DNA of 39,015 bases from Elusimicrobiota bacterium (lineage in GTDB: Bacteria > Elusimicrobiota > UBA8919): contig JBFLWK010000016.1 of assembly GCA_040757695.1 (NCBI GenBank), positions 1 to 39,015 on the forward strand. Reading direction: 5' to 3'. Below the pieces are notes generated by a model. The model made no database searches. It was not told where the DNA came from and worked only from the letters and a program-made list of their open reading frames with translations. Every line of letters starts with the position of its first letter. The stretch's first letter is position 1. The position numbers and the translations under genes were made by a program. Below are positions 6,095-29,624 of the stretch, piece after piece.

Positions 6095-6721
6095 TTACTG
6101 TAATTCCTTCCAAAATGGCTTTAATGATTTTTTTAGCGAACTGACAACCAAGCCGACTGCTGTATTTATATCTAACGCTTCGTAACTTTTTGAATCGCTC
6201 CATACAACCTCGCCAGTTAAACCATCTGTAATTTTTGCCGAAATAGATACGGATGCGGATACTGTAAAAACATTGGCATCTTCAAGCCCGAATGCAGAAC
6301 CCGTCGGAAGAACAGTCGTTCCGCTTATCGGATATGCTTTATCTGATATTACAATTTTACCCTTTTCCTTAAACACCAACAATTTATTTGATGGATTAAA
6401 CTCAATTACATTCCCGGAAATTATTGCATCAACCCCAAGTGATTTTGTATCGCTGATATTCTGAATATCTGTTCTATCAATAACATTCAGTCCTGCGGAC
6501 AAAAACTGTCTTATGAACTCGTTGCTTACTGCATCACCACCATCACCTGAAAATTTTAAGACAGCGATTTTTTTTATACTTGAAAAATCATAACCCTTTT
6601 TAATAACTGTTTTTGTTGTTGCACAACCGAAAAAGGCAGGTAAAAGGTAAAAGGTAAAAGGTAAAAGGTAAAACCACTTCCAATAATTTTTAATTTTTAA
6701 TTTTACATTTTTAATTGTCAC
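6095..6721 (-). CDS. Lipoprotein with CsgG/penicillin-binding-activator-like fold
   Basis: A 208-residue predicted lipoprotein. A hydrophobic signal (WFYLLPFTFYLLPAFFGC) ends in a lipobox Cys near residue 33. The mature part (KKIAVLKFSGDGGDAVSNEF, DRTDIQNI, GVDAIISGNVIEF, TDGLTGEVVWSDSKSY) follows the pattern of CsgG-like or GNA1162-like envelope lipoproteins. The start is a GTG inside a GTGA overlap with the TPR gene. The signal peptide is encoded by a 7-bp tandem repeat. Why an envelope lipoprotein sits in a BMC operon is unclear. Confidence 0.7.
   Translation of the reverse strand: MTIKNVKLKIKNYWKWFYLLPFTFYLLPAFFGCATTKTVIKKGYDFSSIKKIAVLKFSGDGGDAVSNEFIRQFLSAGLNVIDRTDIQNISDTKSLGVDAIISGNVIEFNPSNKLLVFKEKGKIVISDKAYPISGTTVLPTGSAFGLEDANVFTVSASVSISAKITDGLTGEVVWSDSKSYEALDINTAVGLVVSSLKKSLKPFWKELQ
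6639..6673. repeat. Tandem 7-bp repeat (GGTAAAA x5) encoding a signal peptide
   Basis: Five perfect copies of GGTAAAA lie inside the lipoprotein gene. On the coding strand, TTTTACC repeats read F-Y-L-L-P-F-T in every frame, because 7 is not a multiple of 3. Any copy-number change leaves the peptide hydrophobic, but it alters the downstream frame unless it comes in threes. Further AT microrepeats (6686-6715) encode the residues before it. Confidence 0.9.
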
Positions 6722-7212
6722 TTTGCACCCCCTAAAAACTGAATATGTTTTTTTGCTATTTCTTTGAAATCAGAATTTTTTACAAGTTTAGTCCAGTATA
6801 AAATTGCATTTTCTTTTTCATCTTTTTTTTCATAAAGAACAGCGAGTGTATATTGTATTGCTGGAAGACTTTTATCTTCCTGCTTATTCTTTTTGGCTTC
6901 TTTTATTAAGTATTCTTCTGCTGCTTTTAAGTGGGCTTCGGCTTCCCATAAACTGTTTTTTTGCAAAAACATCATTCCGAGTGCGACATCGGGAAGCGGC
7001 GATTTTTCATCCAGCTTTTTTGCTTCAAGAAGTATCTTTACCGCTTCGTCGTATTTTTTCTCTTTAATAAGCTTGTTACCTTCTGCTACAAGTTGGTTCA
7101 CATCCTGTGCATTAAGTAAAGTGTAAAGTGTAAAGTAAAAAGTGTAAAGTAAAAACCATTTCCATGTTCCGCGTCGGTTCTGCGTTTTGTTTCGCGTCTG
7201 TTCTGCGTTCAT
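6718..7212 (-). CDS. Exported TPR-like protein
   Basis: A 164-residue protein with a signal-like hydrophobic stretch (WFLLYTFYFTLYTLLNAQ, about residues 18-35). Helical repeats follow, of tetratricopeptide type: NKLIKEKKYDEAVKILLEAK, LGMMFLQKNSLWEAEAHLKA and YTLAVLYEKKDEKENAILYW. Such proteins usually act as scaffolds in envelope complexes. The start overlaps the rpiB copy 1 stop and the end overlaps the lipoprotein start, so TPR protein and lipoprotein are probably partners. The whole N-terminus is encoded by microrepeats. Confidence 0.7.
   Translation of the reverse strand: MNAEQTRNKTQNRRGTWKWFLLYTFYFTLYTLLNAQDVNQLVAEGNKLIKEKKYDEAVKILLEAKKLDEKSPLPDVALGMMFLQKNSLWEAEAHLKAAEEYLIKEAKKNKQEDKSLPAIQYTLAVLYEKKDEKENAILYWTKLVKNSDFKEIAKKHIQFLGGAK
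7114..7211. repeat. Two microrepeat tracts covering the N-terminus of the TPR gene
   Basis: 7114-7157 is built from variants of GTAAA and GTGTAAA and encodes the hydrophobic signal. 7169-7211 is built from GCGTC(T/G)GTTCTGCGTT variants and encodes the residues before it. Both are degenerate direct repeats like those in the intergenic gaps, but here they lie in frame. Confidence 0.8.
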
Positions 7213-8417: not shown

Positions 8418-8539
8418 GTTGAAAAAGTCCTCTGTTTGTCATTCTGAGCGGAGCGAAGAATCTCGCAGTTCGCCGGAATATGAAACCCTTCCCCCGAAAC
8501 AAGTTCGGGGTCAGGGTAGTTTTTGCTGACTTTTTCAGC
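8418..8539. repeat. MITE-like element with terminal inverted repeats
   Basis: A 122-bp element with near-perfect ends: GTTGAAAAAGTC (8418-8429) and GACTTTTTCAGC (8528-8539), one mismatch in 12. Inside are the widespread module CATTCTGAGCGGAGCGAAGA and a CCCCGAA-acaag-TTCGGGG hairpin. A 13-bp inverted repeat (8517-8529 with 8535-8547) overlaps the right end. The 276-bp gap between BMC-T and the 62-residue gene otherwise holds no gene that I see. Confidence 0.6.
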
Positions 8540-13020: not shown

Positions 13021-13030
13021 AATAGAACCA

Positions 13031-13097
13031 GTGATTATGTGATTAAGTAATTAAGTGATTAAGTAAAACCTAACCACGTAACCACTTAGCCACTTAT
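13031..13097. repeat. Intergenic microrepeats before the aldehyde dehydrogenase gene
   Basis: Copies of GTGATTAAGTAATTAAGT and of AACCACGTAACCACTTAGCC fill the gap between eutN copy 3 and the aldehyde dehydrogenase gene and reach the eutN stop. No promoter is evident in it. Confidence 0.75.
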
Positions 13098-26631: not shown

Positions 26632-26714
26632 CCACAGATTAACACAGATTAACACAGATTTTAATTCTTAATTCTTAATTCTTAATTCTAAGTTTTTTCA
26701 GTGTCCATCTGTGG
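26632..26714. repeat. Microrepeat hairpin between the response regulator and DUF2344 genes
   Basis: CCACAGATTAACACAGATTA repeats and four copies of TTAATTC are closed by CCACAGAT (26632-26639) against ATCTGTGG (26707-26714). A 68-nt loop separates the arms. It lacks the T-run of a terminator. Confidence 0.75.
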
Positions 26715-28177: not shown

Positions 28178-29290
28178 TCATTTTGCTGATATTTTCCATA
28201 AAAGCAGTGTATCAAAAACGCTCCAGGCAAGTGATAGAAAAAATATGATATCTAACAGTATAAAAAAGTTGGTTGATAGAAAATCTCTGGCATTCTCATA
28301 TGAATCCTCAATCCGTGTAATTTTTGTTTCAACCCATTTTTCTAATTCTTCGGTATTAAAAATTTTATTTATATTCGTATAAAGCATCTTTAAGTGCCAG
28401 TCGTTTTCTATCTCCGGAATGCCGGTGTGTATGTCGGATATAATTTCAAGTTTATCCCTGTCAAAATCCAGCGAGTCCTTGCTGAATTTATTATACTGCG
28501 TAAATGTTTTAAGAATCTTGAAGCCCGATGGAATATCTGCAAGATGTTTCTGCGCATCATCAAGTTCTTTCTGCAAAATATAATCATATGATTTTAAGAC
28601 CCACCATTGCACAAGTGTAAGTTTGATTATATCAACAATCGTATCCGCTTCTTCTGACGATATAAATGCGCCGAACCGTTTAATCAGAATTATTTCGTCT
28701 TCATAATATCCATAATTAGCGAGCGGTTCTGCCTGGATTACAAACTCTGAAAGTTTTTCATAGTTTGTTTCTGCTGAGACAATTCCGTAAAGTGTTTTCA
28801 GGTTTCTGGTGATAAATGTGTCTGCAGAAGATGTAAGCCGGTCCATAACAAAAACAGGAAAAATTTCTGTCTCTTCAAGTTTGCGGTCATATCTATGGAC
28901 TGCATACTGCTGTGCTTGGGCAATCATATTCTGTGCAAGTTTCTGGCAGTATGAAATTATTTCTATTCCATTTATTTTTATTTGAGACGACAAACAGGAA
29001 ATCTGCGTACAGGTTGAAAGTGTTTCATCACTATAAACATTAAATGTTATAGAGATTAGCCCACAACCATATCTATAAAGTTGTACTTCTGTATTAGCAT
29101 TTTCGTATTGTGTCTCAAAAAAAGTTAAAGTTGTAAGTTTTTCGCGATGTAATACTTTGAAAATAGCCGACTCATCATAGAAATCCAAATCTAGTCCCAT
29201 ATCAAACGGGAACAAAAGCGTACAAATCATAATAAAACCAGCGGATAAGCGAATAAGCGGGACAGCGGATATATGTAAAACCGATTTCAT
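28178..29290 (-). CDS. Unrecognised envelope protein upstream of exbB
   Basis: A 370-residue protein of no family I can name. A hydrophobic signal or anchor lies near residues 8-28 (LIRLSAGFIMICTLLFPF) and a second membrane segment near residues 342-362 (FFILLDIIFFLSLAWSVF). The region between is acidic and probably periplasmic, with helical stretches. The gene order puts it in one unit with ExbB, ExbD and a response regulator, so it may be the effector or sensor of that motor. Its N-terminus is encoded by a microrepeat. Confidence 0.6.
   Translation of the reverse strand: MKSVLHISAVPLIRLSAGFIMICTLLFPFDMGLDLDFYDESAIFKVLHREKLTTLTFFETQYENANTEVQLYRYGCGLISITFNVYSDETLSTCTQISCLSSQIKINGIEIISYCQKLAQNMIAQAQQYAVHRYDRKLEETEIFPVFVMDRLTSSADTFITRNLKTLYGIVSAETNYEKLSEFVIQAEPLANYGYYEDEIILIKRFGAFISSEEADTIVDIIKLTLVQWWVLKSYDYILQKELDDAQKHLADIPSGFKILKTFTQYNKFSKDSLDFDRDKLEIISDIHTGIPEIENDWHLKMLYTNINKIFNTEELEKWVETKITRIEDSYENARDFLSTNFFILLDIIFFLSLAWSVFDTLLLWKISAK
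29240..29270. repeat. Microrepeat encoding the signal segment of the 370-residue protein
   Basis: GCGGATAAGCGAATAAGCGG and GACAGCGGAT are tandem variants. On the coding strand they give S-A-V-P-L-I-R-L-S-A-G, the start of the hydrophobic signal. The gap upstream (29291-29333) carries another such repeat, CTTACCTGCTTACCTGCCCA. Confidence 0.75.
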
Positions 29291-29333
29291 TCACACTTAC
29301 CTGCTTACCTGCCCACCTGCTTACCCGCTACAG

Positions 29334-29516: not shown

Positions 29517-29538
29517 TTTTTCTCACCTCCTTAACGAC

Positions 29539-29617
29539 AATTAAAAATTAAAAATTAAAAGTTAAAAATGTATTTTATTTACCATAATTTTTAATTTTAC
29601 ATTTTACATTTTTAATT
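29539..29617. repeat. TTAAAAA microrepeats upstream of the histone gene
   Basis: AATTAAAAATTAAAAATTAA variants (29539-29570) face TTTTTAATTTTACATTTTAC variants (29586-29617) in inverted order. They fill the leader of the histone gene and may fold. The same unit occurs at 6686-6715. Confidence 0.75.
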
Positions 29618-29624
29618 ACCCTTA

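Follow-up and report, generated by a model that had tools for sequence, protein, structure and literature searches.

Dispersed arrays of 7- and 8-bp repeats as a probable source of signal peptides in an Elusimicrobiota genome

In the genome of an uncultured Elusimicrobiota bacterium, roughly one in five of the predicted secreted proteins has its export signal encoded by a member of a family of tandem arrays with repeat units of 7 or 8 bp. Our preferred interpretation, which we regard as probable, is that a dispersed pool of such repeats overwrites the signal peptide segments of exported-protein genes, and that the signal peptides consequently evolve in concert within the genome. The stretch of DNA analyzed (hereafter the window) is 39,015 nucleotides long and represents contig C16 of a 2.89-Mb genome assembled in 264 contigs (genome G000).

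Two neighboring genes of the window, coding for a predicted lipoprotein and an exported TPR protein, have signals encoded by repeats (Table 1), as the first-pass annotation had proposed for both. The lipoprotein array is perfect (100% match, TRF score 72), and the two arrays read on the minus strand from the GTG at 6721 code VTIKNVKLKIKNYWKWFYLLPFTFYLLPAFFGC, which comprises the n-region, h-region and lipobox and therefore the whole lipoprotein signal peptide. The gene has no match among curated families and only a weak GNA1162-like hit below the cutoff; its orthologs were found in 7 of 7 genomes searched within the family and in G008, a genome of the same order. In the TPR protein, the h-region is supplied by a heptamer array and the n-region by a 23-bp repeat. 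This n-module recurs in unrelated genes at C8:30525 and C38:8463, the former of which combines it with the h-module of the lipoprotein; the n- and h-modules are partly independent of each other.

Table 1. Repeat arrays and associated genes in the window
Feature	Position	Strand	Remarks
Predicted lipoprotein gene, 208 aa	6095..6721	-	GTG start (6721) overlaps TGA of upstream TPR gene
Lipobox F-F-G-C, predicted lipidated Cys33	6623..6634	-	Lipobox-like motif with final G-C at this point in family orthologs
TTTTACC x5.1 array (+ strand GGTAAAA)	6638..6673	-	Codes lipoprotein h-region FYLLPFTFYLLP
AAAAATT-type array (TAATTTT on + strand)	6684..6716	-	Codes lysine-rich n-region IKNVKLKIKNY
Exported TPR protein gene, 164 aa	6718..7212	-	ATG at 7212, Shine-Dalgarno GAGGAGG
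ACTTTAC/ACTTTTT array	7116..7155	-	Codes TPR protein h-region LLYTFYFTLYT
23-bp repeat x2 (AACGCAGAACAGACG type)	7165..7209	-	Codes TPR protein n-region NAEQTRNKTQNRR
Intergenic inverted pair AGTGATTA / TAACCACT	13030..13096	.	Type as in KWLSGYVVKW...TYSLIH cassettes
Adjoining intergenic arrays CACAGATTAA + TTAATTC	26633..26689	.	
350-aa gene, no family	28178..29230	-	Start moved from 29290 to 29230 on orthologs
Octamer arrays TATCCGCT / AGCAGGTA	29240..29329	.	Hairpin 5' of gene 28178-29230, noncoding after start correction
Intergenic palindromic element, AATTAAA/TAATTTT arrays	29539..29617 (blastn match 29536-29620)	.	Fold z -3.05

A third signal peptide had been proposed to arise from a AAGCGGAT-type repeat at 29240-29270. 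The repeat exists, but orthologs of the adjacent gene in three genera begin at a Met that corresponds to position 29230 of the window (MICTLL[FY]PFDMGLDLD; for example, ...NYFF-MICTLLF in G001) and have no start codon upstream of it. The repeat is therefore located upstream of the gene, in noncoding DNA, which rules out a signal peptide at this site; together with the repeat at 29296-29329 it makes an intergenic hairpin (z -2.1). This case illustrates a rival explanation for the arrays in general, namely that the genes are misannotated, with true starts downstream of the repeats and the arrays representing 5' untranslated regions. The possibility had been raised in the first-pass annotation; it is correct for the third case and fails for the lipoprotein and the TPR protein. 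The lipoprotein start is preceded by AGGGGGTG, and the reading frame contains no in-frame start codon near the lipobox, 3' of the array; the TPR gene has its own ribosome-binding motif (GAGGAGG); and the signal peptides of the orthologs of both proteins end at the same point. The arrays moreover hold the h-region and adjoin the cleavage or lipobox residues, and as a general explanation misannotation is hardly credible.

Among the intergenic repeats of the window, the element at 29539-29617 matches cassettes that code for signal peptides on contigs C2 and C10 (74-80% identity over about 90-135 bp). The intergenic segment at 8437-8530 carries a GTCATTCTGAGCGGAGCGAAGAATCTC-type sequence, which we take to be a dispersed bacterial repeat; the related TGTCATTGCGAGC type is located within signal peptides at C2:42531 and in locus L130.

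The unit TTTTACC is translated into the cycle F-Y-L-L-P-F-T identically in all three frames, and all three frames of its complement, GGTAAAA, are interrupted by stops. The frame independence pointed out earlier for this unit is thus correct, and it extends beyond TTTTACC, being a property of any stop-free unit with a length not divisible by 3. The pyrimidine strand is free of stops in all frames in 78% of the arrays in signal peptides compared to 36% of the intergenic arrays, an excess that is as expected if selection filters the coding copies. The proposal that repeats could seed export signals in any frame fits both this analysis and the sharing of cassettes between unrelated genes and intergenic DNA described below.

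The abundance of arrays was assessed in the largest contigs, C1-C16 (1.017 Mb, some contigs in part, excluding those picked for GGTAAAA). TRF reported 183 arrays of period 7 and 72 of period 8 in this sample, 255 in total, compared with none in a sequence of equal length generated by a 4th-order Markov model. With periods 14, 16, 21 and 24 included, 102 arrays fall within the first 40 codons, 87 in other parts of genes, and 95 in intergenic DNA, which corresponds to densities per kb of 1.03, about 0.10 and about 1.2, respectively. Coverage is highest just 5' of start codons and at nucleotides 20-80 of genes. The elements are short (about 30-110 bp), dispersed, partly palindromic, and common to genes and intergenic DNA, a feature that the first-pass annotation had overlooked. 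Their distribution along the contigs is uneven, with no arrays of period 7 or 8 in C5 (73 kb) and in C1:30000-80000 and about 47 in 95 kb of C2. Arrays of non-triplet units also occur within the conserved cytosolic enzymes RuvC (C3:33945-34424) and riboflavin synthase (C9:40322-40918), the latter with its unit unchanged in the sister genus (G004), and inverted pairs of arrays in proteins with multiple membrane spans (C18:7824-7894, C18:10236-10308, C4:54801-56645) code for a charged loop and then a hydrophobic stretch, as in signal peptides.

Could such arrays arise locally, by microsatellite birth and slippage that expand low-complexity hydrophobic codons in place, without any movement of elements? 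Signal peptides are of low complexity and weakly constrained, and the arrays comprise 3-9 units, both of which suit this explanation. However, periods 6 and 9 together account for only 20 arrays compared with the 255 of periods 7 and 8, unlike slippage under coding selection, and the comparisons among genes and orthologs presented below provide further arguments against it.

Arrays are concentrated in genes for exported proteins. Of 310 exported-looking genes, 67 had an array within the first 40 codons, compared with 8 of 517 others (OR 17.5, p = 1.6e-22), a contrast that is partly circular because gene calls and signal peptide classes derive from our own heuristics, not SignalP, and a hydrophobic array favors the call "exported". 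The array-bearing fraction was 12/17 for lipoproteins, 46/203 for Sec-like signals, 4/8 for prepilins, and 5/82 for the class of signal peptides or transmembrane segments. In G004, where contigs were picked regardless of arrays, the counts were 11 of 122 versus 4 of 321 (OR 7.9, p = 2e-4), so the proposed genome-wide test, which asked whether microrepeats within genes are more frequent in predicted signal peptides, came out positive in both genomes; 100-kb samples of two further relatives are too small for the enrichment to show. The families assigned by Pfam to the mature parts lend partial independent backing: behind array-coded signals they include solute-binding proteins, secretins, N-methyl pilins, amidase, subtilase, BatD, FecR and TolC, and the proteins with internal arrays include ferredoxin-type, AIR synthase and other cytosolic families. 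By heuristic prediction, the proteins with array-coded signals fit the Sec or lipoprotein pattern of a charged n-region, a hydrophobic h-region, and a cleavage or lipobox motif. Leaders resembling those of type IV prepilins, located before G-F-T-L-I-E, are also array-coded at C2:8067-10751 and C13:7492-9912.

The cassettes are shared among unrelated genes well beyond the repeat units. Signal peptide cassettes of unrelated genes have 85-119 bp in common at 88-97% identity, with one pair reaching 99% over 101 bp, and the shared sequence includes non-repetitive centers and borders along with the arrays. When used as blastn queries, the cassettes also match intergenic elements, such as C10:14052-14161, C14:16279-16379 and 29536-29620 of the window. 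In a 5.3-kb segment at C10:44560-49866, three genes are 94-99% identical in the first ~100-115 nt (ILKAIKNYKLKIKNCGLFLTFIFHFSFFIFHCLY) and differ in their mature proteins. The motif GCCTTT is enriched 3' of the pyrimidine-rich strand (24 of 114 arrays in signal peptides, 11 of 100 intergenic arrays), and as the border GCCTTTA in signal peptides it codes for a recurrent C-L-Y ahead of the cleavage site. Neighboring arrays are inverted relative to each other more often than shuffled pairs, both in signal peptides (0.386 vs. 0.242 +- 0.023) and in intergenic DNA (0.469 vs. 0.323 +- 0.039). In signal peptides the first array is purine-rich (65%) and supplies the charged residues, and the second is pyrimidine-rich (24% purine) and supplies the hydrophobic ones.

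Intergenic copies fold better than controls, with 39% at z < -2 (p = 6e-6). In-gene copies fold no better than the 5' ends of other genes (mean z -0.57 vs. -0.52, p = 0.65), which leaves the retention of a hairpin in the signal peptide copies unsupported; the palindrome is clear only in intergenic copies and a subset of signal peptides. Genes for Y1 (RAYT-type) transposases are present in the family f1 (G000-G007) and in G011 and absent from most other relatives sampled. Copies of Y1_Tnp number six in G000, one to seven in the family genomes, and none in G008, and three copies that were inspected had no directly flanking arrays. The transposase as a mover of the elements is a lead only.

Comparisons of orthologs show that the arrays turn over. 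Lipoprotein orthologs within the family, 61-85% identical, have differing signal peptide arrays (TTTTACC, CTACTTG-like or TTTTTAA-type) or an ordinary signal peptide, the latter in G001 and in G008 of the same order, and the TPR protein orthologs exhibit a similar pattern. No clean empty site was seen beside the ordinary signal peptides of the G001 and G008 orthologs at the loci inspected. Of 116 ortholog pairs between G000 and G004, 17 have N-terminal arrays in both genomes, seven in one (4 + 3), and 92 in neither. The units differ in 15 of the 17 pairs with arrays in both; some contigs of both genomes were picked for GGTAAAA hits, a bias that should favor shared rather than differing units. 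This result runs counter to the earlier suggestion that the repeats would let the signal vary easily in length, as the unit is replaced and not re-counted, and gain or loss of one unit of 7 or 8 bp would alter the reading frame. In 13 of the 17 array-bearing pairs the signal peptide DNA was closer to a non-homologous gene of its own genome than to its ortholog, compared to 4 of 34 array-free genes with SP-like N-termini (p = 1e-6). Mean scores against the own-genome non-homolog and the ortholog were 45.6 and 24.1 for array-coded signals and 19.1 and 46.2 for the 34 array-free genes, although mature identity was equal (71%) in both sets.

The replacement of units in orthologs, which goes beyond copy number, and the centers and borders common to unrelated genes lead us to reject local slippage as the main cause; it is very improbable. 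We consider it slightly less probable still that the arrays are contingency loci, in which 7- or 8-bp units in signal peptides switch export genes by frameshift. A change by one unit does shift the frame, and heptanucleotide repeats underlie phase variation of Haemophilus hmw1A (PMC8262952). However, the arrays are short, often degenerate, equally dense in intergenic DNA, and present in exporters with probable housekeeping roles (secretin, TolC, solute-binding proteins), and the difference in unit in 15 of 17 ortholog pairs is again at odds with switching by copy number. A stronger, though still unlikely, competitor holds that selfish palindromic elements insert everywhere and that signal peptides are merely the surviving in-frame sites, with no role of the elements in making or replacing signals. 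Signal peptides tolerate nearly any combination of n- and h-region patterns, the elements also occur in intergenic DNA and in loops of the cytosolic RuvC and riboflavin synthase, and other dispersed repeats (the TGTCATTGCGAGC type) are likewise found within signal peptides. On the other hand, 17 of the 24 pairs with any array have one in both species, nearly always with another unit, and independent insertion alone would yield more empty sites; in addition, the arrays constitute the h-region and do not interrupt an existing one.

These results lead us to propose that signal peptides are overwritten from a dispersed repeat pool in the following way. The elements consist of tandem 7- or 8-bp units, often in two inverted arrays (purine-rich, then pyrimidine-rich) with an enriched 3' border GCCTTTA, and are found in intergenic DNA as well as in frame at the 5' ends of exported-protein genes. 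In signal peptides, the charged n-region is encoded by the purine-rich array, the h-region by the pyrimidine-rich array, and the C-L-Y by GCCTTTA. Since neither 7 nor 8 is divisible by 3, the same peptide appears in every frame, and the pyrimidine-rich strand is by nature poor in stops and hydrophobic; if a copy lands close to a start codon, it could therefore serve as a signal peptide. Signal peptide segments would be overwritten repeatedly from the pool of the same genome while the mature proteins evolve normally. We infer that the array-coded signals function in export. Dispersed arrays probably recombine or undergo gene conversion with one another, a route of copying that we favor over transposition, and signal peptides may be hit because they are tolerant of overwriting. 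A bolder version, which we find conceivable but somewhat doubtful, is that the signal peptides of the whole secretome represent a pool resembling a gene family, with active copying that moves modular n- and h-cassettes, elsewhere present as hairpin repeat DNA, into the 5' ends of export genes, so that export signals would evolve in concert and independently of the proteins they carry.

Arrays of period 7 or 8 occur at 25 per 100 kb in G000, 20 in G004, 22 in G002, and 7-11 in G001, G003 and G005, compared with 1.4 for the other families of the phylum, based on 74 kb of loci. Of 295 genomes in the phylum, nine matched an AAGTGAAT-type array pattern, the majority of them from family f1, and one contig scan with a narrow pattern gave three hits, which under-samples the taxonomic spread. 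A plasmid search with the signal peptide gave no match. In a Gemmataceae MAG (66% GC), inverted (GGTAAAA)n...(TTTTACC)n pairs are numerous, and one lies within an apparent signal peptide. In this MAG (G061; loci L129, L131, L173-L187) the palindromes are of the form GAATAAGAAAGGTAAAA...TTTTACCTTTCTTATTC on a GGTAAAA-type heptamer and are apparently independent.

The data bear on the long-standing questions of the origin of export signals and of the rapid divergence of signal peptides, and offer a large natural set in which repeat DNA was turned into signal peptides repeatedly. The rationale is simple: non-triplet units read the same in each frame, and charge followed by hydrophobicity results when a pyrimidine array comes after a purine one. 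If our interpretation is true, the genome offers a clear example of a protein targeting signal that evolves in concert. On the bolder version, the hairpin heptamer arrays of the planctomycete, with one apparent use as a signal peptide, might point to a general route from simple repeats to export signals. There is also a practical warning, in that such N-termini cause unrelated proteins to be linked in homology searches.

A literature search on signal peptides made of repeats yielded no near precedents beyond the Delihas and Borg papers, and none of the nearest precedents joins non-triplet arrays, genome-wide use in signal peptides and concerted evolution. The STRR repeats of filamentous cyanobacteria are dispersed tandem heptanucleotides of many unit types located between genes, and to our knowledge they have no role in signal peptides. 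The arrays described here are likewise dispersed and degenerate heptanucleotides, in a different phylum and with period-8 arrays in addition; unlike the intergenic STRR, they are intergenic in 95 cases, within the first 40 codons in 102, and elsewhere in genes in 87. The Haemophilus hmw1A contingency loci also have 7-bp tandem units near gene starts (PMC8262952); the arrays described here gave no evidence of copy-number switching, and orthologs differ in unit. The protein-coding palindromes of Rickettsia (RPEs), Wolbachia and Methanocaldococcus jannaschii are small dispersed palindromic DNA that, like the elements described here, is located in intergenic regions and in frame in unrelated genes (PMC2996958). 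Here, in contrast, in-gene copies at 5' ends mostly constitute the signal peptide itself, the arms are tandem 7/8-mers of many units, and orthologs show replacement, not presence or absence. In Yersinia, fusions with the MITEs RU-2 and RU-1f include a single MITE-derived signal peptide (Delihas 2007, PMC2759123; PMC2229807); these fusions involve few loci, compared with about a fifth of predicted exported genes, tandem arrays, and concerted evolution here. Finally, the tandem repeats of Borgs are genome-specific, turn over rapidly, and are enriched in proteins with signal peptides, but those in open reading frames all have units divisible by three and form disordered regions (PMC9879509), whereas the units of 7 or 8 in the present genome form the signal itself.
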